The notes under the pieces were generated by a model. It searched no databases, was not told the origin of the DNA, and saw only the letters and a program-made list of their open reading frames with translations. From NCBI GenBank assembly GCA_028749115.1, contig JAQURD010000002.1, positions 1 to 53,428 of the forward strand: 53,428 nt of DNA. The letters are read 5' to 3'. The stretch is from Acidobacteriota bacterium (GTDB lineage Bacteria; Acidobacteriota; Aminicenantia; Aminicenantales; Saccharicenantaceae). The position numbers and the translations under genes are program-made. Below, piece by piece: positions 42,297 through 53,428 of this stretch; position 1 is the first letter of the stretch, and each line of letters begins with the position of its first letter.

Positions 42297-42965
42297 TCAG
42301 GACGGGGCTAACTTTATAATTTTCTCAGTTGTTTTGAAATGATATTTGGCTACCCGCTCCAGTATGTCAGGACCATATTTTTTTACCAGTTGAAAGCCTG
42401 CTTCTTCAACCAGAGGTGAAGCTCCTTTGGGCAGTTCCAATCCAACCTCCAGGGAGAGTTTTTTAAGCCGGTGGAGAAATTCCGCCCGGGCCAGGATAGA
42501 AGCCGCCGCTACCGCCAGGTCAGTTTCGGCCTGGGTCTTTTGAATCAAATTAATTCTTTTGCCTTTTTTAAGTAAGGCCTGGCTGACAAATTTTTCATCA
42601 CCGAATTGGTCAGTTAAGGCCTCCTGGCAATTTACTTTTTCGAGGATATTTTCGATGGCCCTGGCATGTCCCCAGGCTAACAGGCGGTTAAGATTTCCTA
42701 GACGGTCATAAAGGTCATTATAACGCTCCGGCCCGATAGCCACGACAGAAAATATATAGCCCTTTTTCAACTCAGCTGCCAGGTCCAGCACCCGCCGATC
42801 AGACAACTTTTTACAATCTTTTACTCCTAATTCAGTTAAGACTTCGGACTGACCGTCAGGCAAAAAAAAGCCAGCTACCACTAATGGGCCAAAATAATCG
42901 CCCTTGCCGGATTCATCGGTTCCGATATGGCCTTTCTCTGGTGTAAATAGCTCTGTTTGTTCCAT
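42297..42965 (-). CDS. rnhC: Ribonuclease HIII lacking the N-terminal TBP-like domain
   Basis: 222 residues. Cuts RNA in RNA:DNA hybrids. The HIII-specific GTDESGKGDYFGPLVVAG (from residue 16) contains the first acidic residues; ALTDQFGDEKF and AETDLAVAAASILARAEF supply the rest, so the catalytic set looks complete. Typical RNase HIII is near 300 residues with an N-terminal TBP-like substrate-binding domain, absent here. Bases 42133-42296 separate it from alaX. Confidence 0.88.
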   Translation of the reverse strand: MEQTELFTPEKGHIGTDESGKGDYFGPLVVAGFFLPDGQSEVLTELGVKDCKKLSDRRVLDLAAELKKGYIFSVVAIGPERYNDLYDRLGNLNRLLAWGHARAIENILEKVNCQEALTDQFGDEKFVSQALLKKGKRINLIQKTQAETDLAVAAASILARAEFLHRLKKLSLEVGLELPKGASPLVEEAGFQLVKKYGPDILERVAKYHFKTTEKIIKLAPS

Positions 42966-43007: not shown

Positions 43008-44507
43008 TTAGCATTTTCGGAGCCACTGGTCTATAGCCCGGGCCGCCCGCCGTCCATCGCCCATAGCCAGGATGACGGTTGCTCCGCCTCTGACCGCATC
43101 TCCGCCGGCGTAAATTCCCTCGAGGCTGGTGGCCATCGTTACTGGATCGGCTTCAATATTCCCCCATCGTCCGAGTTTTAACCCTTCTACCTGGCGGATC
43201 AAAAGAGGATTTGGACTCTGGCCAATAGCCACCACCGCCAGTTCAGCCTCAACTTCGAATTCTGATCCAGGCACAGGCACAGGTCTTCGTCGGCCCGAAG
43301 CGTCTGGCTCGCCTAAGGTTAATCTCTGAAGGACCAGACCTTTAAGCCGTCCCTTTTCATCCCCTAAATAACGGCTTGGAACAGTCAAAAAATTGAACTT
43401 GATTCCTTCTTCCTCAGCGTGCTTGACTTCTTCTACCCGGGCAGGCATCTCTACCCGGGAGCGGCGGTAATAGATGGTTGCCTCCTTAGCGCCCAGCCTC
43501 AAAGCAGTCCTGACTGCATCCATAGCCACATTGCCACCGCCAATGACTGCCGCTTTTTTAACCACCGGCACCGGTGTATCATACTCAGGAAATTTAAAAG
43601 CCTTCATCAAATTGACCCGGGTCAAATATTCATTGGCCGAAAAAACCCCGAGAAGATTCTCTCCGGGAATATTCATAAAAGATGGCAGTCCAGCCCCGGT
43701 ACCGACAAAAAAAGCCCGGTAGCCAGCCTGGCTGAGATCAGTCAGAGTAGCTGTTCTTCCGACCAGAAAATTGGTTTTGATCTCCACTCCCAGGCTGCGA
43801 ATGAAATCAATTTCCTGATTGAGAATGGAGCGTGGCAGGCGGAATTCAGGAATTCCATAAGTCAGAACGCCGCCCGGGAGGTGAAGCCCCTCAAAGACCG
43901 TCACCTGATAACCGAGGCGGGCCAGGTCAGCCGCCGCTGTCAAACCGGCTGGCCCCGAACCGACAACTGCTATCTTTTCACCTTTAGCCTGGCCACAGGC
44001 AGATTCATTAACAGTTTGATCATTACACCTGACATAATCAGCGGCAAATCTTTCCAGATGACCAATGGCTACCGGTTCTTTACCGGCTTTGATCAGATTA
44101 CAGTTTTTCTCGCACTGGACTTCCTGGGGGCAAACCCGGCCACAAATTGCTGGTAGCCCATTAGTCTCCCTCAGAGTGGCCAGAGCCAGGGCGATTTCTC
44201 CGCTTTCAATATATTTAATAAAAGTTGGAATATCTATGGCTACCGGGCAACCGGAAACACAACCCGGATCACTACAGTCGAGGCAGCGCTGAGCTTCTTC
44301 CCTGGCCATCTCAAGAGAATAGCCCAGATTTACCTCCAGAAAATTAGCTGCTCTTCGGGCCGGTGGTTGTTCGGGCATTTTATGGCGCTGACTCTCCAGG
44401 CGCTTTCGGACTGAAACATCCCGGCGGAGGGCTTTCCTCCATTCCTGTTCGCGCTGCCGGCTTAATTTTTCCTTTAAGCCCGGTTCGAGAATATCATCTT
44501 TGCTCAT
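43008..44507 (-). CDS. nfnB: NfnB/GltD-like NADPH-binding flavoprotein, two [4Fe-4S]
   Basis: 499 residues. N-terminal ferredoxin-like helices bind two [4Fe-4S] clusters (Cys75, 78, 83, 87 and Cys122, 126, 132, 136). An FAD-binding domain follows (VVGSGPAGLTAA), then an NADPH domain (VIGGGNVAMDAVRTALRLGA, YYRRSR), then a second half of the FAD fold (GIYAGGDAVRGGATVI). This matches the glutamate synthase small chain and NfnB, where one FAD bifurcates electrons from NADPH to ferredoxin and NAD. NfnA just upstream (10-base gap) favours the Nfn reading; no gltB large chain is present. Last gene of the operon. Confidence 0.9.
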   Translation of the reverse strand: MSKDDILEPGLKEKLSRQREQEWRKALRRDVSVRKRLESQRHKMPEQPPARRAANFLEVNLGYSLEMAREEAQRCLDCSDPGCVSGCPVAIDIPTFIKYIESGEIALALATLRETNGLPAICGRVCPQEVQCEKNCNLIKAGKEPVAIGHLERFAADYVRCNDQTVNESACGQAKGEKIAVVGSGPAGLTAAADLARLGYQVTVFEGLHLPGGVLTYGIPEFRLPRSILNQEIDFIRSLGVEIKTNFLVGRTATLTDLSQAGYRAFFVGTGAGLPSFMNIPGENLLGVFSANEYLTRVNLMKAFKFPEYDTPVPVVKKAAVIGGGNVAMDAVRTALRLGAKEATIYYRRSRVEMPARVEEVKHAEEEGIKFNFLTVPSRYLGDEKGRLKGLVLQRLTLGEPDASGRRRPVPVPGSEFEVEAELAVVAIGQSPNPLLIRQVEGLKLGRWGNIEADPVTMATSLEGIYAGGDAVRGGATVILAMGDGRRAARAIDQWLRKC

Positions 44508-44517
44508 TGATTGAACC

Positions 44518-45351
44518 TTAATCTAAGGTTTTATTCAGGTAACTGGATAGGGCCTGTTCTTCCTGACGGAGGAAGGCTTTCCGCCGGTTAAAATATTCTG
44601 CCCAGTCAACTCCATGGCCATCAAACTCAGGCCCGTCCACACAGGCAAAATAGGTCTGGCCATTAACCGTCACCCGGCAAGCACCGCACATGCCGGTACC
44701 GTCAACCATAATTGGATTCAAATTGACCATGGTTTTTAGATTCAGCTCCCGTGTAATTTTCGAAACAATAAACAAGAGATAGCTGCAGCCCATGACCACT
44801 ACTCTGGATAGCTCTGGATTGTTATTCTTTAACTGTCTGATAATTTTCCCGAGCTCATCCCCGGAAGCAAAACAATCAGCTTTAAGAACTTTTAGATAAC
44901 CGTCAACTACTTTTCTTATTTTTTCTTCCCAGAAAATAAAGGCCTCATCCCGGCCCTCAGCCAGAAAGGTCACCTTATTTCCTTTTTGCTTAAGTTCCCT
45001 GGCTAGTGGATAAAACCCAGCCAGGCCATAGCAACCGCCAACTAAGAGAACCTGACCAAAATTACCTATCTCAGCTGGCCGCCCGAGTGGACCGGCCACC
45101 GCCTGAATAGAATCGCCGGCTTTAAACCTGGCTAACTTTCTGGTACTCACTCCTAAATTCAGGAAAATGAGGTCAATAGTTCCCTGGTCCTCGTCCCAGT
45201 CAGCCAGACTAATAGGCACCCTTTCTCCCTTTTCATCTGGAATGACTATCACGAATTGTCCGGGGCGAGCTGACCTGGCAATCTCCGGCGCCTCCACTAC
45301 CAGGCGGAAAATATTAGGCACCAGCCGCTCGGCTAAAATTACCCTATTCAT
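44518..45351 (-). CDS. nfnA: NfnA-like ferredoxin-NADP reductase subunit
   Basis: 277 residues. FAD/NAD-binding subunit of the PyrK/NfnA type: an FAD beta-barrel with RPGQFVIV, a nucleotide domain with VLLVGGCYGLAGFYPLA, and a C-terminal [2Fe-2S] site, DGTGMCGACRVTV...FACVDGPEFDGH, with the Asp and three Cys. In Nfn this subunit exchanges electrons with NAD(H) while NfnB handles NADP(H). Its start overlaps the NuoG-like stop by 8 bases, so co-translation with that subunit is expected. Confidence 0.9.
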   Translation of the reverse strand: MNRVILAERLVPNIFRLVVEAPEIARSARPGQFVIVIPDEKGERVPISLADWDEDQGTIDLIFLNLGVSTRKLARFKAGDSIQAVAGPLGRPAEIGNFGQVLLVGGCYGLAGFYPLARELKQKGNKVTFLAEGRDEAFIFWEEKIRKVVDGYLKVLKADCFASGDELGKIIRQLKNNNPELSRVVVMGCSYLLFIVSKITRELNLKTMVNLNPIMVDGTGMCGACRVTVNGQTYFACVDGPEFDGHGVDWAEYFNRRKAFLRQEEQALSSYLNKTLD

Positions 45352-47866
45352 TTTTCAGCTCCACCCATCCCTTGACTATTCCCTGGTGATAGATATCTGA
45401 CAGAAATCCATCTATCAAAAGCGGCCTGATTACCAGGACTCCTGGTGTAATGCCAGAATCAGGTTTAATCTTGCCTTTCAACGCCTTACTCTCGAGCTTG
45501 ATAACTATCTCCTCACCGGCCTCCAGCCCGAGGTGGCTAATATCGCTGGGATTAATCAAAACAGTACCGGGATTTCTGGCCTGCTGGTATCCAGGAACTC
45601 CCTCCGTTAAATTAAAACCACCATAAAGATCAAGATTTTGCTCAACCACGATGATAAATTCCTCTGTCAGCATTCTTTCCTTTTCTGAAGAAAGAGAGTC
45701 ACCAATCTTTTCCATCATTGTCCCGGAAAGAAAATATCTTTTCATTCCAGGTTTAAGAAGAGAAGTTGCGGCCGCTCCTGGCCGTTCAGAAAGATTTATA
45801 TTCATTTTAGAGGGTGACCATTCAGCTCTTCCCAGTTCGGCTCTAAGTTTATTGAAAATGGTCTGATCAGATACCGGATGTCCCTCCTGCTCCCTGGTCG
45901 AGGGACTTTCTTTAAGCTGCCCCGTATAGTCAACCAGATGCCCGCTTTCTCCAGGCCAGAAGCTGGCTGGAAGAAAAACATGACTTAAGTCAGCCAGCGA
46001 CGAGTTAAAAAATAGATTATGGACGGTCAGAAACTCCGGTTTCTCAGTAAGCGGGATATCTCCATAGACATAAAGATTCCTGACTTTTTTCGCTTTTATT
46101 TTGTTTTCAAGCTCTTTTATCTCATCCAGGATCTTAATCTGCCCCTGACCAGCCAGGCCGGCCAGAAATTTTTCATTTATCTTGGAAGACAGAGGCCATA
46201 TCCCGGCCCCAAGCGCCAGGCTCAGATTCCAGACAGCCAGTAAATTTTCTTTCCAGTTTTTTTGCCTTAAAAAGCGCTGGCCAAAAATAAATGTCCAGGA
46301 CTTACCTGAGGCTAGGAAATCAACTATGGTTTTAACAGAGTCTGAATTCAATCCACTGGCCAGAGCCAGATCTTCTGGCTGATAATGTCTAAGTTTTTCA
46401 GTTAGCTCTTTCCAGCCGGGCCATGATTTCAAGCAATCTGGTCTATCCAGCCAGAGCCTCAATACGGCCAGAAGGGCCAGATCTTCTTTACCAGGTAGAG
46501 GTTTGAGTTTGAGGTCAGCCTGCCCTTCCAGCGCGTTTGACCCGGAGTCAAGGACAACCATTCTTGATCCGGCCTTAAGCTGCTTTTTGATTTCCAGCCA
46601 GAGAGTTACCGCCTCGGATTTAAGATCAGAATCGATTATAAAAAAGCATCCGTTTTCTGGTAGTTTCTCAGGAACTGATGAACAATAGTTTAAACCAACC
46701 TGGTTTTGCTGCTCAAATTCTATCAGCCTGGTCAAGAAATTTTCCGGATAATACCAGAAGATATTTTTTAAGCCGAGTTCCTGACCAAGATGGATAAAAG
46801 ACAGTAAATTCTCAATTGTATTTGATTCAGCAAAAATAAAGGCTGTTTCCTCCGGATTGGTTTCTTTCAGACTGGTCACCACGGCCGATAGAGACTGCTC
46901 CAGTGAAGCCTTTTCCCGGCTGTTTTTGATTCTGACCGTCTGAGACTCAGCTAATTTATGATCAGCCAGCAAGCCTTTTAAACCGAAACGGCCGCGAACA
47001 CAGCCCAAGAAAAAAGCCGGTTTTTCCCCGGCGGCAGGAACAATTCTCCGGCAGACTTTATCTTCTCCAATTTCTGCCTCCAGCTCGCAGCCACAACTGC
47101 AGAGAGGGCAGACAAATTTTTTTGTGCTAATTTTTTCTCCTCTGGCCGGAAACAAGCCTTTTTCAGACATGGCTCCAGTCGGACAAACATCAAGACAGGC
47201 ACCACAAAAACTGCAATTACTGGCCTGAAGAGACCGGTTATAAAACGTGCCAATGGCTGTTGCTTCTCCCCGGTTAACAAAGGTCAGAACATTTTCTCCC
47301 CTGATTTCTCCACAGACACTGACACACCTTCCGCAGAGAATGCAAAGATTCGGATTATGAATAATGAAGGGATCTTTTGACCATTGAGGACGGTTACGAT
47401 CTTTGAACTCAAAGCTGACTTTTTTAATATTTAGATAGGAAGCTACCCGCTGCAAATCGCAATCACCATCTTTAGGACAAAAGATACAGCCCCCAGGATC
47501 GAAAGCCTTGCTCATGGTCACCTTCAACTCATCACAATCAGCTTTTTCCGAACAGAGCAGGCAAAAATACGGATGCTCACTTAAAATCATTTCCAGAGTG
47601 GTCAGCCTCAACTTTTCCAGTTCTTCTGATGAGGTCTCAACCTCCATTCCCTCTTCAGCCAGGGTGGCACAGGCCGGGGCAAATGACGGCCGGCCTTTAA
47701 TCTTAATAAGGCAAAGGCGGCAACTGGCCAGGGGCGGCAATCCTTCCAGCTCGCACAGAGCCGGGATATAAAGGCCAGCCTCCCGGGCAGCCTGGAGGAC
47801 AGAAATTCCTGGCCTGGCCTCAACCGGCCGGTCATTTATTTTTAGGCTTAAAGATTTTTTCTCCAT
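45344..47866 (-). CDS. NuoG/FdhA-like iron-sulfur subunit with an apparently non-catalytic molybdopterin fold
   Basis: 840 residues. N-terminal [2Fe-2S] ferredoxin (Cys38, 49, 52, 66); His-Cys cluster motif (His98, Cys102, 105, 111); a second Cys-x2-Cys-x5-Cys motif (127, 130, 136); two [4Fe-4S] of ferredoxin type (175, 178, 181, 185 and 218, 221, 224, 228); then a molybdopterin-oxidoreductase fold with its own cluster (253, 256, 260, 289). The Cys or Sec that ligates Mo/W in formate dehydrogenase is not seen in the expected place, where the sequence reads IFWYYPEN, so it probably acts like NuoG as an electron conduit. It begins directly after the NuoF stop (no spacer) and overlaps nfnA. Confidence 0.9.
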   Translation of the reverse strand: MEKKSLSLKINDRPVEARPGISVLQAAREAGLYIPALCELEGLPPLASCRLCLIKIKGRPSFAPACATLAEEGMEVETSSEELEKLRLTTLEMILSEHPYFCLLCSEKADCDELKVTMSKAFDPGGCIFCPKDGDCDLQRVASYLNIKKVSFEFKDRNRPQWSKDPFIIHNPNLCILCGRCVSVCGEIRGENVLTFVNRGEATAIGTFYNRSLQASNCSFCGACLDVCPTGAMSEKGLFPARGEKISTKKFVCPLCSCGCELEAEIGEDKVCRRIVPAAGEKPAFFLGCVRGRFGLKGLLADHKLAESQTVRIKNSREKASLEQSLSAVVTSLKETNPEETAFIFAESNTIENLLSFIHLGQELGLKNIFWYYPENFLTRLIEFEQQNQVGLNYCSSVPEKLPENGCFFIIDSDLKSEAVTLWLEIKKQLKAGSRMVVLDSGSNALEGQADLKLKPLPGKEDLALLAVLRLWLDRPDCLKSWPGWKELTEKLRHYQPEDLALASGLNSDSVKTIVDFLASGKSWTFIFGQRFLRQKNWKENLLAVWNLSLALGAGIWPLSSKINEKFLAGLAGQGQIKILDEIKELENKIKAKKVRNLYVYGDIPLTEKPEFLTVHNLFFNSSLADLSHVFLPASFWPGESGHLVDYTGQLKESPSTREQEGHPVSDQTIFNKLRAELGRAEWSPSKMNINLSERPGAAATSLLKPGMKRYFLSGTMMEKIGDSLSSEKERMLTEEFIIVVEQNLDLYGGFNLTEGVPGYQQARNPGTVLINPSDISHLGLEAGEEIVIKLESKALKGKIKPDSGITPGVLVIRPLLIDGFLSDIYHQGIVKGWVELKNE

Positions 47867-49774
47867 TTAATTATTCCCCGTAGTTGCTTGATTGACCTGC
47901 TGATTATTCTGCCCGCTGACCTTTTTAATTGCCTGAAATTCTTCAGGACAGACTGAAGAACAGATACCACAAGCCTGGCAGGCGGATAAATTAATCCGAG
48001 GTAAGCCACCTGGCCCAACCTCAATCGCACCATAAGGACAGGAATTCAGGCAAAGCTGGCAACCTGAGCACTGATTTTCATCAATAATATAGGATATGAG
48101 TCCGGGACAGACCAGCGCCCGACATTTTTTCTCATTTATGTGCTCCTCAAATTCATGGCGGAAATAACGAAGAGCTGTCAGCACAGGATTGGGCGCCGTC
48201 CGCCCCAGCCCGCAAAGTGAAGCCTGTTGCATGGTCAGGCCAATTTTCTCCAGCAGGTCAAGGTCAGCCAGTTCTCCCTGCCCTTTGGTTATTTTTTCGA
48301 GAATTTTAACCATCTGCTGTGTACCAATCCGGCAGGGAACACACTTTCCGCATGATTCTTCACAGGCAAATTTTAGAAAATAAAGAGCCAGATTGACCAT
48401 ACAGGTATCTTCATCCAGAGCTATTAATCCGCCCGAACCCATAATTGCCCCGGCCTGAGGTAAAGATTCATAGTCAACCTTAAGATCAAACAATTCAGCC
48501 GGCAAGCAGCCGCCAGACGGTCCTCCTATCTGGACAGCTTTTATTTTCTTCCCTTTTCTGGCCCCACCACCTATTTTATTGACAATTTCATTCAGGGTTA
48601 TTCCCAGTGGCACCTCGACCAGACCGCTATACTTAACATGACCAACCAGTGAAAAAATTTTGGTCCCTTTACTCTTATCCGTTCCGGTTTTTGAGAACCA
48701 GGCAGCGCCGGAGCGAATGATCAAGGGAACATTGGCCCAGGTCTCAACATTATTGATGACCGTTGGTTTACCCCATAGTCCCTTGACTACTGGAAAAGGA
48801 GGCCTCTGTCTGGGATTAGCTCGCCGCCCTTCAACTGAGGCAATCAGAGCAGTTTCTTCACCTGAAACAAAGGCACCGGCTCCCCTGATAAGCTCCAGAT
48901 TAAAAGAAAAATCTGTGCCTAAAATCTTTTCGCCTAACAATCCAGCCTGATGAAGAGTGTCAATGGCTTCGTCCAATCTCTCTATGGCCAGGGGATATTC
49001 CTGGCGAACATAAATGAAACCGCAGCTAGCACCAACCGCATAACCACCAATCATCATTCCTTCCAGAACACTATAGGGATTGCTCTCTAAAATCCCTCTA
49101 TCCATATAGGCTCCGGGATCTCCCTCATCTCCATTACAGATCAAATACCTGGGTTGAGCCTCAGCCCGTCTGGCCAGTTGCCACTTTAAACCGGTAGAAA
49201 AACCGGCTCCGCCTCTTCCTCTTAACCCGGAAGCAGTTATTTCCTCTATCACTTCTTCCGGTGTCTGCCGGCCTAAAACTAACCCGAGTGCCTGAAAACC
49301 TGCATGCCCCAAATAATCATCAAGGCTCAGTGGATCCAGGTCAAGCTGCCTGTCAATCAGCCAGCGAACCTGACCCTGGTAAAAAGGCAATTCTTCCAGT
49401 CTGGCACAGATTTTCTGGCTGTCTTCATCCTTAAATCCCAGCTCGGGGATAAATTGGCCGTTAATTCCTGTTTCCAGCAGAATATGTTTTACATCTTTGG
49501 CCTTGATATCTGGATAAAAATATTTCTCGGGAAAAATAATGACTTCGGGTTCGAGCTGACAGAAGCCGTGACATCCAGTTAATTTGAGCTCAATTTTACC
49601 GGCCAGACCAAGTTCTTTTATAGCCGCCTCAAAAGCTGACGCCAGGCTTAAGGCTCCCGAAGCCCGTCCACAACTGGCTGCTGACAGGCTGATTATTCTA
49701 AAAGAAGGCTGGCTCCGCTTTTCTTCATGATAATCACTGAGTTCTTTTAGAGAATTAAATTTCACAGGTTTCAT
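47867..49774 (-). CDS. NuoF-like NADH-binding flavoprotein (HydB-like) with extra ferredoxin domain
   Basis: 635 residues. A thioredoxin-like N-terminal domain (Cys35, Cys68, Cys72) precedes the NADH/FMN core: RGRGGAGFSTGLKW (NADH), NGDEGDPGAYMDR (FMN), and the [4Fe-4S] Cys475, 478, 481, 521. Two further [4Fe-4S] follow at 569-579 and 599-609. This is the layout of HydB/NuoF of bifurcating hydrogenases and Stn. The N-terminal [2Fe-2S] normally needs four Cys, but the first (CKGTGC in HydB) is lost: Leu30/Ser31 replaces it, so that cluster may be missing or altered. The start overlaps nuoE by 20 bases. Confidence 0.93.
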   Translation of the reverse strand: MKPVKFNSLKELSDYHEEKRSQPSFRIISLSAASCGRASGALSLASAFEAAIKELGLAGKIELKLTGCHGFCQLEPEVIIFPEKYFYPDIKAKDVKHILLETGINGQFIPELGFKDEDSQKICARLEELPFYQGQVRWLIDRQLDLDPLSLDDYLGHAGFQALGLVLGRQTPEEVIEEITASGLRGRGGAGFSTGLKWQLARRAEAQPRYLICNGDEGDPGAYMDRGILESNPYSVLEGMMIGGYAVGASCGFIYVRQEYPLAIERLDEAIDTLHQAGLLGEKILGTDFSFNLELIRGAGAFVSGEETALIASVEGRRANPRQRPPFPVVKGLWGKPTVINNVETWANVPLIIRSGAAWFSKTGTDKSKGTKIFSLVGHVKYSGLVEVPLGITLNEIVNKIGGGARKGKKIKAVQIGGPSGGCLPAELFDLKVDYESLPQAGAIMGSGGLIALDEDTCMVNLALYFLKFACEESCGKCVPCRIGTQQMVKILEKITKGQGELADLDLLEKIGLTMQQASLCGLGRTAPNPVLTALRYFRHEFEEHINEKKCRALVCPGLISYIIDENQCSGCQLCLNSCPYGAIEVGPGGLPRINLSACQACGICSSVCPEEFQAIKKVSGQNNQQVNQATTGNN

Positions 49775-50270
49775 CAGATTTTTCCCCGGCCGTCAGCCCG
49801 GCTACAATTTTCTCTATTTCTTTTAGATTGACCCGGGCATGATACTGCCCATCAACCACAACTACCGGACCAATAGCACAACAACCAAGACAATTGACCG
49901 TTTCCAGAGAAATACTTTTTTGCCGGTCGTAATCGCCAGCTTCAATACCAAGAAGTCTGGAAAATTCCTTCATAATGGCTTCTGAGCCCCGCACATGACA
50001 GGCAGTTCCCTGACAGACCTTGATATGATGAGCACAGCTCTGGTTTAGTTTGAAAGCTGAATAAAAGGTCAGAATGCCAAATATTTCAGCCGGTGATACT
50101 GAAAAATATTGGGCGGCAAGCAAAACCACTTCTTCAGGGAAATAGCCCAGGTGGTTTTGCACCTGGTGAAGAAAGAAAATCAAATTCTTCCTCTCAGGCG
50201 ATATGCCCTTTAGCAGACTCTCGGCTACTTGCCGGGCATGGTTCTTTTTGATTGTAACTTTTTCTATCAT
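49755..50270 (-). CDS. NuoE-like [2Fe-2S] subunit
   Basis: 171 residues. Helical start, then a thioredoxin-like [2Fe-2S] domain with VCQGTACHVRGS and NCLGCCAIGP, giving four Cys in the NuoE/HydC pattern. It partners NuoF to take electrons from NADH. The ATG at 50270 overlaps the amidohydrolase stop in an ATGA junction, so its translation is probably coupled to that gene. Second gene of the operon. Confidence 0.95.
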   Translation of the reverse strand: MIEKVTIKKNHARQVAESLLKGISPERKNLIFFLHQVQNHLGYFPEEVVLLAAQYFSVSPAEIFGILTFYSAFKLNQSCAHHIKVCQGTACHVRGSEAIMKEFSRLLGIEAGDYDRQKSISLETVNCLGCCAIGPVVVVDGQYHARVNLKEIEKIVAGLTAGEKSDETCEI

Positions 50271-52379: not shown

Positions 52380-53428
52380 TTAGAAGGAGAATTTAGCACC
52401 AATCCTAAAAGATCTGGCGTCTAAGATGCCCTGCGTATATTGGAAAGGAATGGAAGGGTGATTCGAAGTTGTTCGCCAGGAGGTGGTGGTATTAGCATTG
52501 GTGAGGTTGAAGACATCACCAAATACACGAAATGACATAGAGTTGCTGAATTTGAATTGCTTTTCCAAACGCAAATCGATTAAGAATAAGCTGGGAAGAC
52601 GGTAGGAGCCATAAGGTTCTGCATTAACGACCCAATTGCCAGCATCATATCCCGCAAGCGGATATGAATCGACCTGGCGCCGCGAGGCGTAGCCGCTAAA
52701 AAATCGGGTGTAGGTGCTAATATTAATACCCCAGGGGCCATTCACCACAGCCGAAAGCTTCAATTGGTGAGGTCGATCCAGGGACATACGACCATAAGCA
52801 TTAGTATGGGCATTTGGGTTGTTGTAGAGAGGTTCATCCAGTTCTGATTCCCAGTATGTATTTTGCACCAGACCTGTGGCCTTACTGTAAACATAAGACA
52901 GGTCAAACGACCAGCCAAGGGAAAATCTCTTCCTGAGCGTGACTTCGAAACCATTATAATCTCTCTTCAAGCCCGGAACGTTGACCATGTAGATATCGGC
53001 GGCTCTATATTCACCGTCGCCATAGAAAGTGATAGTTTTGCCATCGTACGGATCCGTAACTTCGATTGGTACCCAACGCGTCTCGTCCCAGATAAGCTCA
53101 CCATTCTTCATCAGAGCGTCCATGTCCAGAGCACTAGCATCAACGTCTTCAATAAGCTTCCGTTCCCATCTACGGATATAGCGGAGGCCTAAAGACATAT
53201 CTTCAAATAGCTGTTGTTCAACTCCGAAACTGGCTTCATAGGTTCTGGGAGCAACAAGCTTCTTACCGGGATAACCTATGGTTACATTTGAACCTGGTAC
53301 TGATGCATATGTGACCTCACTAACATCTCCGGTAGGATTATCAGGATTGGTATATCCTTCAACCCAGATCCAGCCGACCGGTGTTACATACCAGGTCGTT
53401 GCCGTGTAATTGTCCATAGTATACTGGG
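52380..53428 (-). CDS. TonB-dependent receptor, C-terminal part (Oar-like)
   Basis: At least 349 residues, the frame running off the window end (reading continues upstream of the first Met at 53417 with QYT). The segments are barrel strands of a TonB-dependent outer-membrane receptor: LSLGLRYIRRWERKLIEDVD-type strands, NGFEVTLRKRFSLGWSFDLSY, LDRPHQLKLSAVV, FRVFGDVFNLTN, and a terminal Phe after RSFRIGAKFSF. Long loops and the DxFNLTN motif recall Oar-type receptors, known for peptide or lipid uptake in related phyla. Its bases look less TGGCC-rich than the neighbours. Ends in a strong hairpin. Confidence 0.88.
   Translation of the reverse strand, partial: QYTMDNYTATTWYVTPVGWIWVEGYTNPDNPTGDVSEVTYASVPGSNVTIGYPGKKLVAPRTYEASFGVEQQLFEDMSLGLRYIRRWERKLIEDVDASALDMDALMKNGELIWDETRWVPIEVTDPYDGKTITFYGDGEYRAADIYMVNVPGLKRDYNGFEVTLRKRFSLGWSFDLSYVYSKATGLVQNTYWESELDEPLYNNPNAHTNAYGRMSLDRPHQLKLSAVVNGPWGINISTYTRFFSGYASRRQVDSYPLAGYDAGNWVVNAEPYGSYRLPSLFLIDLRLEKQFKFSNSMSFRVFGDVFNLTNANTTTSWRTTSNHPSIPFQYTQGILDARSFRIGAKFSF

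Follow-up and report, generated by a model that had tools for sequence, protein, structure and literature searches.

A conserved five-gene operon of Aminicenantia that apparently joins a Bfu core to NfnAB: a candidate electron-bifurcating NADPH:NAD+/ferredoxin transhydrogenase

The window analysed here is a stretch of 53,428 nucleotides from an Acidobacteriota bacterium of the class Aminicenantia (assembly GCA_028749115.1, contig JAQURD010000002.1, positions 1 to 53,428), in which five genes on the minus strand form a block between positions 43008 and 50270. In the order of the operon, these are a NuoE-like gene (49755-50270, an open reading frame (ORF) call of 171 amino acids, aa), predicted to encode BfuC (HydC, StnA type), the thioredoxin-like [2Fe-2S] subunit; a NuoF-like gene (47867-49774, 635 aa), predicted as BfuB (HydB, StnB type), the subunit for flavin mononucleotide (FMN), nicotinamide adenine dinucleotide (NAD(H)) and ferredoxin; a NuoG-like gene (45344-47866, 840 aa), the putative BfuA or electron-wiring subunit; an NfnA-like gene (44518-45351, 277 aa), the putative subunit for flavin adenine dinucleotide (FAD), [2Fe-2S] and NAD(H); and an NfnB-like gene (43008-44507, 499 aa), the putative subunit with a bifurcating-type FAD, two [4Fe-4S] clusters and the phosphorylated nucleotide NADP(H). 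The original prediction, made from the letters of the window, had given 20, 0 and 8 bases for the successive overlaps and 10 bases for the final gap, values that the ORF coordinates reproduce exactly; its statement that the operon lacks a hydrogenase or formate dehydrogenase (FDH) catalytic gene is also borne out for the five genes. The names it gave agree with Pfam and NCBIfam, except that the NuoE and NuoF are of the HydC/HydB type, the core of Bfu enzymes, and not of the complex I type. In it, two electron-splitting machines that had been known only as separate enzymes appear to be combined, most likely in one large enzyme balancing NADH, NADPH and ferredoxin.

The conservation of residues was followed in 92 loci where NuoF, NuoG, NfnA and NfnB all exceed the score limits, reduced to 76 distinct loci after removing repeats with identical NuoF and NfnB. 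As this set demands all four proteins, loci without NfnA or NfnB (such as L140, L144 and L156) stand outside it; one locus with split frames (L081) was retained and is the source of some gaps, and a contig end leaves some of the 76 incomplete. What the sequences show directly is the gene set, how far it is conserved and which cofactor ligands it encodes.

Regarding the first two subunits, the NuoE-like protein matches PF01257 (Pfam, E 3.8e-39), and its Cys 86, 91, 127 and 131 are kept in 37 of 37 aligned copies. The NuoF-like protein possesses Complex1_51K, NADH_4Fe-4S, SLBB and two C-terminal Fer4 domains, its N-terminal thioredoxin-like part and the two C-terminal 4Fe-4S clusters being of the HydB/BfuB type. 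Its top solved relative is 7t2r_B, the HydB of a bifurcating NiFe hydrogenase (E 1.4e-208); the other top ones are HydB of HydABC enzymes (7p5h_B among the HydB-type chains) and StnB (8oh5_B, E 2.1e-184), and complex I NuoF ranks far behind these chains. All the positions named for the B2 cluster of Bfu enzymes are filled in the NuoF of the window, namely Cys458, Thr496, His545, Cys551 and Cys556. The codon of His545 (48140-48142, minus strand) is aligned to His525 of 7t2r_B and encodes His in 76/76 loci, and position 496 is Thr in 56 loci, Val in 6, Ser in 4, Cys in 4, Lys in 3 and Ala in 3. According to PMC9304861, His525 is a ligand of B2, an unusual [2Fe-2S] cluster in bifurcating Bfu enzymes; this His is missing in non-bifurcating homologues, and the equivalent of Thr496 is Cys or Thr in Bfu enzymes. 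The C-terminal domain with the two [4Fe-4S] clusters B3 and B4 (Pfam, residues 563-611; 47942-48088, minus strand) corresponds to the ferredoxin site of known Bfu enzymes, and its eight Cys are found in 69-70 of the 76 loci. Because of the HydB/StnB-type relatives of NuoF and the filled B2 positions, NuoEF is read as a Bfu core and not as a complex I module; a BfuC with [2Fe-2S] and a BfuA homologue, as membership of the Bfu family requires, are both encoded in the operon. In four loci the NuoF is fused to a GltD/NfnB-like flavoprotein domain (L059:1977-5243, L141:4898-7978, L144:4852-7941, L146:3545-6970). In L059 and L141 this domain takes the place of B3/B4 and a separate NfnB gene is also present, and in the L146 and L144 fusions the N-terminal helix of NfnB has moved to the end (32 and 14 bits, respectively).

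The NuoG-like protein has Fer2_4, NADH-G_4Fe-4S_3 (in two stretches) and Fer4_Nqo3 domains, followed by a weak Molybdopterin match (PF00384, 31 bits), and reaches 223 bits against TIGR01973, under the family cut-off. Its top solved relative is 7t2r_A, the BfuA of the bifurcating NiFe hydrogenase (E 7.4e-48), compared to which it bears one cysteine triad more. In 40 of 40 aligned copies, 22 Cys and His98 are invariant, including the ordinary ligands for a [2Fe-2S], a His-Cys3, two [4Fe-4S] and an FdhF-type [4Fe-4S] cluster. The duplicated cysteine loop (47459-47575, minus strand) reads His98-x3-Cys102-x2-Cys105-x5-Cys111 and then Cys127-x2-Cys130-x5-Cys136, so that a second Cys-x2-Cys-x5-Cys triad starts 16 residues past the first. 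This duplication is present in 76/76 distinct loci; among 105 distinct NuoG ORFs compared with the strict pattern, 104 carry it, the sole exception (L144) having both triads with a wider spacing in the first. Other NuoG/FdhA-like genes from 12 related genomes give two-block matches to the model that omit about positions 104-121, and, among the matches listed for these genes, 11 start at model position 121 or 122. The duplicated triad is a sequence mark separating this NuoG family from the formate dehydrogenase and NuoG relatives compared here.

The FdhF-like C-terminal part of NuoG (residues 245-840; 45344-47134, minus strand) has a fold matching FDH and NuoG, as confirmed by a Foldseek search with the AlphaFold model (7vw6_A, E 1.7e-40). 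Past residue 289, no Cys column reaches half of the 40 aligned copies, and the fullest late column has Cys in 25 of 76 copies and Ile in the window; this half of the protein is probably catalytically dead. Extra genes carrying the N-terminal cluster part of NuoG, with the duplicated triad, occur in three loci (L154:10738-12945, L124 from 7569 and L141, minus strand, from 14293); those of L154 and L124 join this part to a GltD-like domain, forming a half-size StnC-like protein, which in L154 sits between NuoG and NfnA. Long frames (1255-1479 aa) at some NuoG genes were considered as fusions and rejected, being frame extensions over nuoF.

The last two proteins resemble the complete two-subunit Nfn. 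NfnA reaches 319 bits against NF004862 (NCBIfam, cut-off 220), with 5jca_S as a solved relative (E 4.7e-69), and its Asp217, Cys222, Cys225 and Cys237 are kept in 76/76 loci, Asp217 presumably being the [2Fe-2S] ligand of the NfnAB type. NfnB reaches 582 bits against TIGR01316 (NCBIfam, cut-off 472), with 4ylf_B (E 2.3e-162) and 5jca_L (E 1.6e-161) as solved relatives. By alignment, its Glu152 (44052-44054, minus strand) stands at the position of the Glu cluster ligand of NfnB, which is Lys in Stn, and is Glu in 76/76 loci; Arg223, equivalent to Arg201 of Pyrococcus NfnB, is also kept in 76/76, and the eight cluster Cys in 75-76 of 76. The roles of the Glu ligand and of the Arg near FAD are those given in PMC10482914. 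The genome of the window has a single NfnA, as a second match (27% identity) is PyrK-like and lies beside PyrD. As read from these alignments, NfnA and NfnB are complete, and the signature residues of both bifurcation sites, BfuB and NfnAB, are unchanged in 76/76 distinct loci (BfuB His, NfnB Glu and Arg, NfnA Asp), in agreement with the earlier claim that both modules are whole and separate.

Several lines of evidence indicate that the five genes belong together. The trees of NuoF, NuoG, NfnA and NfnB over the 76 loci agree, with r of 0.77-0.89 and a Mantel result of 0/999 for each; all four share 30 of the 73 splits, and the two operons of one genome (G304; L046 and L068) fall into different clades in every tree. 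In one locus (L071), NuoG and NfnA form a single ORF of 1144 aa, in which 24 linker residues connect the intact end of NuoG to the intact start of NfnA, and thus no frameshift is needed to explain the fusion; the two genomes searched from that family, its own included, gave no second fusion of this kind. In addition, NuoG-NfnA(-NfnB) stay together in Ammonifex (L151) and Methanotrichaceae (L140), where the visible part of the locus contains no NuoEF. The conserved order described below, the congruent trees, the fusion, the pairing of NuoG and NfnA outside the NuoEF context and the intact residues of both bifurcation sites all support the five-subunit bifurcating transhydrogenase of new layout suggested at the outset. 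For related parts, biochemical work exists on Stn (PMC10482914) and on Nfn-Bfu (PMC9304861).

From a scan of named genomes with the NuoG alignment, the best 80 of 467 relatives were kept; the closest of these by sequence are Candidatus Aminicenantes and Candidatus Saccharicenans metagenome-assembled genomes (MAGs), and the window probably stems from a Candidatus Saccharicenans. Loci were classed as cut when less than 3.6 kb preceded or less than 4 kb followed NuoG, and a locus with a Hox-like hydrogenase (L056) was excluded from all operon counts. The survey of gene order and fused forms proposed with the original prediction found the order E-F-G-A-B complete on one strand in 53 of these best 80 named loci; 24 are cut by a contig end, and 3 differ despite full flanks. 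Across all loci examined, L071 holds the only NuoG-NfnA fusion. The three differing loci are a Methanotrichaceae archaeon (L140) with G-A, a divergent NfnB and no EF; the Ammonifex locus, with G-A-B and no EF; and a Chloroflexi locus (L156; 5791-11643) with E-F-G, including the duplicated triad, and no NfnAB in view. Hence, NfnAB is encoded behind NuoG, and not alone, in 53 of the 56 uncut loci. In L156, an FNR-like flavoprotein gene (NAD_binding_1) lies next to NuoEFG and is perhaps another third-substrate module.

Seven of the 24 cut loci also depart from the order in their visible part. Three are archaeal, from Methanotrichaceae/Methanosarcinales records (L138, L139, L142), with NuoG then NfnA and no NuoEF in view; in L139 and L142, as in L140, NfnB lies upstream on the opposite strand, and these four archaeal loci thus present a NuoG-NfnAB unit with no Bfu core in view. 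In L148, NuoEF is not in the 8 kb upstream (the same place as L067, below); L124 has the extra NuoG-GltD gene following NuoG, and L144 and L146 have the GltD-like domain fused to NuoF. A further phylum set, which overlaps partly with the 80 loci as it shares genomes, has the full order in 33 of 39 regions; three are cut (L044, L050, L057), and three differ, with NuoE not found in L065, NuoEF downstream of NfnB in L069 and NuoEF not in the 5.9 kb upstream in L067, a region cut after NuoG. Three genomes carry the operon, or its NuoG, in two divergent versions (G304 with L046 and L068; G264 with L065 and L069; G336 with L053 and L067), and in G304 and G264 one copy has an NfnB of about 500 aa and the other of about 475 aa.

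The record labels of the complete loci, taken as deposited, span about eight phyla: Acidobacteriota/Aminicenantes, Elusimicrobia, Thermodesulfovibrionales and Nitrospirae, Nitrospinae, WOR-3, Planctomycetota, Dehalococcoidia, Desulfobacteraceae and Clostridiales. The Clostridiales label (L105), the only one checked among those of MAGs, is wrong, since the operon and its synteny are those of Aminicenantia and the same contig place is listed in the order of the window. Within the class, the NuoG alignment has matches at E 1e-120 in 86 of 118 genomes at least 80% complete. In G470, G477 and G478 the match starts only at position 122 and the protein does not belong to this NuoG family, which leaves 83/118, a count that includes one genome matching only from position 223 (G419). 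Within the order of the window, 76 of 80 genomes, all at least 80% complete, match it, on the assumption, drawn from a listing ordered by kinship, that 12 unlisted misses are more distant. Both figures count NuoG matches, gene order having been examined for only some of the genomes.

In NfnAB, the FAD itself splits electrons, one going to NfnA and NAD+ and the other through two [4Fe-4S] clusters to ferredoxin. The NfnAB enzymes of Thermotoga and Pyrococcus (4ylf, 5jca) resemble the present case in the complete NfnA and NfnB with bifurcation-related residues; however, they are two-subunit enzymes, while here NfnAB is encoded right behind NuoG and mostly also with a Bfu core. In Stn, as described by Kumar et al. 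(PMC10482914), the NfnB-like FAD does not bifurcate but supplies, through a cluster chain (FAD-C7-C6-C5-C4-C3-B1-FMN), the FMN site at which the reduction of NAD+ and ferredoxin takes place; StnC joins a GltD/NfnB-like domain with a NuoG whose FdhF part is inactive, the Lys ligand of its FAD-proximal cluster is strictly conserved, and the enzyme is presented there with no NfnA homologue. The operon thus shares with Stn a NuoE-like and HydB-like bifurcating pair, a NuoG-like wire with a dead FdhF half and an NfnB-like NADP(H) module. Besides these similarities, there are differences: the NfnB-like domain of Stn is fused into NuoG, while here NuoG and NfnB are separate genes; the ligand is Glu instead of Lys; NfnA is present; and NuoG bears a second cysteine triad at the insertion place of Stn.

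That place can be read from the StnC-type chains. In 9bov_A (1178 residues, StnC-like), NuoG 8-111 of the window matches 6-114, NfnB matches 98-499 and NuoG 131-446 matches 569-876, and Lys stands at the place aligned to Glu152; in StnC 8oh5_C, NfnB 77-499 matches 99-500 and NuoG 155-297 matches 593-733. In 9bov_A, the N-terminal helix of NfnB (50-79) also has a match behind the NfnB-like domain, though an insignificant one (-0.3 bits). The blocks indicate that the insertion place of the NfnB-like domain coincides with the duplicated triad of this NuoG, which suggests that, in the split five-gene enzyme, NfnB may dock at the duplicated cysteine loop. The idea of a NuoEF-plus-Nfn layout is supported as to its five subunits, but it had missed that NuoEF is a Bfu core and that the closest known enzyme is Stn.

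Other known systems share traits with the operon. The Bfu Types 1-4 (including the NiFe-Bfu HydABCSL, 7t2r, and the Nfn-Bfu of Thermococcus sibiricus) have a BfuB/BfuC core with BfuA and, as in Type 3, extra subunits; however, the consulted main-text parts of PMC9304861, its supplementary tables aside, name no type with NfnA and NfnB as extra subunits, and Nfn-Bfu is a Type 1 with a fused NfnB-like domain, unlike the separate NfnA and NfnB found here. The same source (Schut et al.) lists 17 Bfu clades without function, and for Bam-Bfu, the class II benzoyl-CoA reductase complex, it proposes two bifurcating modules (Bfu and HdrA) in one complex, differing in that the second module is HdrA and the substrate another. 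SfrAB of Geobacter has a NuoG-like SfrA and an NfnB-like SfrB as separate subunits; NfnA is not named in that description (PMC7483475). An HdrA with an inserted NfnB in ANME-1 was considered a possible protein with two bifurcation sites, an analogous idea (PMC9012536), and a conserved nfnBA context in Dehalococcoides, from a supplementary figure, may overlap with the five-gene operon (PMC5736913). The five-gene set is not described in the parts consulted of PMC9304861, PMC7483475, PMC6405883, PMC11406978, PMC5736913 and PMC9012536, supplements being outside this scope, nor in those of PMC8528874, PMC5911951 and PMC4287179; a literature search on Aminicenantes with NfnAB, with subscription papers and bioRxiv largely outside its scope, gave no match.

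Considering these features together, the operon probably encodes one soluble five-subunit electron-bifurcating NADPH:NAD+/ferredoxin transhydrogenase of about 2,420 residues per protomer, expected to hold 13-15 iron-sulfur clusters and three flavins and no Mo or W, as judged from gene content and conserved residues. It would most likely be a Bfu enzyme with NfnAB as its third-substrate module or, put otherwise, a split Stn plus NfnA. From the parts listed above, a joint complex, its electron path and direction, and bifurcation at both flavin sites may be inferred as follows. NuoE and NuoF would form the Bfu core, with FMN, NAD(H) and ferredoxin; NuoG would be the BfuA wire, its dead molybdopterin half serving assembly; and NfnA and NfnB would stand in for the hydrogenase or other third-substrate subunits, bringing NADP(H). 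The hydride of NADPH would pass to the FAD of NfnB and the electrons through its two [4Fe-4S] clusters to the duplicated cysteine loop of NuoG, then along the NuoG clusters to the FMN of NuoF, where NAD+ would be reduced, while ferredoxin would be reduced from FMN through NuoE and the B2-B4 clusters. The high-potential electron of NfnB would reach a second NAD+ by way of NfnA. The E' values tabulated in PMC9304861 (-280 mV for NADH, -380 mV for NADPH and -500 mV for ferredoxin) place the formation of NADPH from NADH and reduced ferredoxin near equilibrium, so that the enzyme could run both ways; in a fermenting cell, it would probably be reversed, producing NADPH from NADH and reduced ferredoxin.

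The plain version of this scheme would be a path like that of Stn, NfnA adding one more NAD port, and sequence alone does not choose it over a double-bifurcation cascade, where the low-potential electron of the NfnB FAD would enter, via NuoG, a second, FMN-based splitting in NuoF. Such a cascade is rather unlikely. If true, the oxidation of NADPH would be split twice, with NADH formed at two sites and electrons delivered below the usual ferredoxin potential, and in reverse there would be a two-step merging that yields very reduced NADPH; such an enzyme would be common among anaerobic bacteria, as an evolutionary counterpart of Stn. A split Stn enzyme, in which NfnB serves only as NADPH port, NfnA is a passive or regulatory addition and only the FMN site bifurcates, is a sub-case overlapping the five-subunit enzyme and may be held as a tentative possibility, at less than even chances. 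Apart from NfnA, the parts are the same as those of StnABC, whose NfnB-like FAD is non-bifurcating (PMC10482914). However, the conserved Glu ligand, in place of the Lys of Stn, and the Asp-ligated [2Fe-2S] motif of NfnA, kept in 76/76 loci, fit an NfnAB under selection as such.

A search of the window's genome, which is 91% complete, for the hydrogenase or formate dehydrogenase partner raised with the original prediction found two NiFe hydrogenase clusters, each with its own electron-input subunits. One is a HoxEF-U-Y-H-like hydrogenase, rejected as a hidden partner for its own fused NuoE/NuoF-like and HoxU-like subunits (names inferred); a FeFe hydrogenase partner was likewise rejected, as this genome has no PF02906 match. 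The other is a membrane cluster on another contig (L160; C39:213001-232000 of the same genome) with complex-I-like and antiporter-like genes and its own ferredoxin-like subunit, whose large subunit has the Pfam domains Complex1_49kDa and NiFeSe_Hases. This large subunit presumably keeps both CxxC metal motifs, and the following gene is taken to encode a HycI-like maturation protease; the cluster is perhaps the cell's ferredoxin-driven hydrogen outlet. No complex I was found in the genome, its only NuoH-like gene lying in this cluster. A role of NuoEFG in bringing NADH electrons into a membrane complex (complex I or a group-4 hydrogenase), with NfnAB as a mere neighbour, could draw on this NuoH-like gene and the complex-I-like membrane genes around it, but it is very improbable, since the cluster looks like a NiFe hydrogenase with a ferredoxin-like subunit of its own, NuoF is of the Bfu and not the complex I type, and the five proteins contain no membrane family in Pfam. 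Scarcely credible is a NuoG that is a living molybdenum or tungsten enzyme for formate or another substrate, making the operon a formate-type Bfu enzyme plus NfnAB. The FDH fold and the weak PF00384 match would agree with it; however, no conserved Cys lies past residue 289, the window's NuoG gene has no internal stop, and a TGA seen in one genome (G320) is the gene's own end, the ORF ending 12 bases before the match end. Moreover, this NuoG is the only Mo-domain gene of the genome, where the MoaA C-terminal and MoeA N-terminal domains were not found, both being detected in 11 of 14 control genomes.

More weight is due to an operon that encodes two separate enzymes, NfnAB on its own and a diaphorase of NuoEFG for an unlinked partner, with the balancing of electron carriers as their only tie. 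Other organisms have an NfnAB that works by itself (PMC6405883), and here it could simply be co-transcribed; the Chloroflexi locus with NuoEFG and the adjoining FNR-like gene, and L069, with NuoEF downstream of NuoG-NfnA-NfnB, also agree with separate enzymes. Nevertheless, this explanation is improbable in view of the NuoG-NfnA gene fusion, the pairing of NuoG and NfnA with no NuoEF in view, the NuoG-specific cysteine loop and the Stn precedent of a NuoG joined to an NfnB-like domain; in addition, four loci outside Aminicenantia (L127, L133, L145, L155) share no further neighbour. Besides co-transcription, other observations weigh against the single five-subunit enzyme. The B2 position 496 is other than Thr, Cys or Ser in 12 of 76 loci, and the whole B3/B4 ferredoxin domain is missing in 5 of 76 NuoF copies (L046, L114, L129, L137, L141) and partly in L059, its Cys also being absent from the split frame of L081, so that the ferredoxin part of the proposed path would be dispensable in some copies. 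The N-terminal site of B5, one of the six core clusters of the Bfu family, has at most three Cys in the window's NuoF, and Cys35 is found in 45 of 76 loci; StnB has likewise lost B5-site ligands (PMC7483475). The AlphaFold model has a pLDDT (predicted local distance difference test) below 50 over most of the cluster region 99-242 of NuoG, where the geometry of the triads is unreadable. Tree congruence is partly plain vertical descent, the NuoG-NfnA fusion comes from one MAG, L069 and L067/L148 (one place) lack NuoEF upstream of NuoG, and L156 has the same NuoEFG with its triad and NfnAB not in view.

Around the operon of the window, an amidohydrolase gene (PF07969; 50267-51925) lies upstream of nuoE on the same strand, overlapping it by 4 bases, and an RNase HIII gene (42297-42965) lies downstream of nfnB, also on the same strand; both neighbours are kept across the genus and, at larger distance, in other Aminicenantia. 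Further upstream, 52380-53417 holds the end of an outer-membrane, TonB-dependent-receptor-like protein, as judged by eye. Among the 80 named loci, 21 have an alanine dehydrogenase/PNT-family gene upstream of nuoE (L091-L123 and others, mostly Aminicenantia) and 21, also mostly Aminicenantia, an acetyl-CoA hydrolase/transferase gene downstream of nfnB; pntB is upstream of nuoE in L127.

Stn and Nfn have been described as almost mutually exclusive alternatives in acetogens (PMC7483475) and regarded as two different solutions to bifurcation (PMC10482914). In the operon described here, found mostly in uncultured lineages, the genes of both machines are complete and adjacent within a single five-gene unit. 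If the two form one enzyme, it would probably be central to the NADPH supply of Aminicenantia and their relatives and a likely link in the evolution of StnC, and it would offer a testable system for the question of whether two bifurcation sites work in series.

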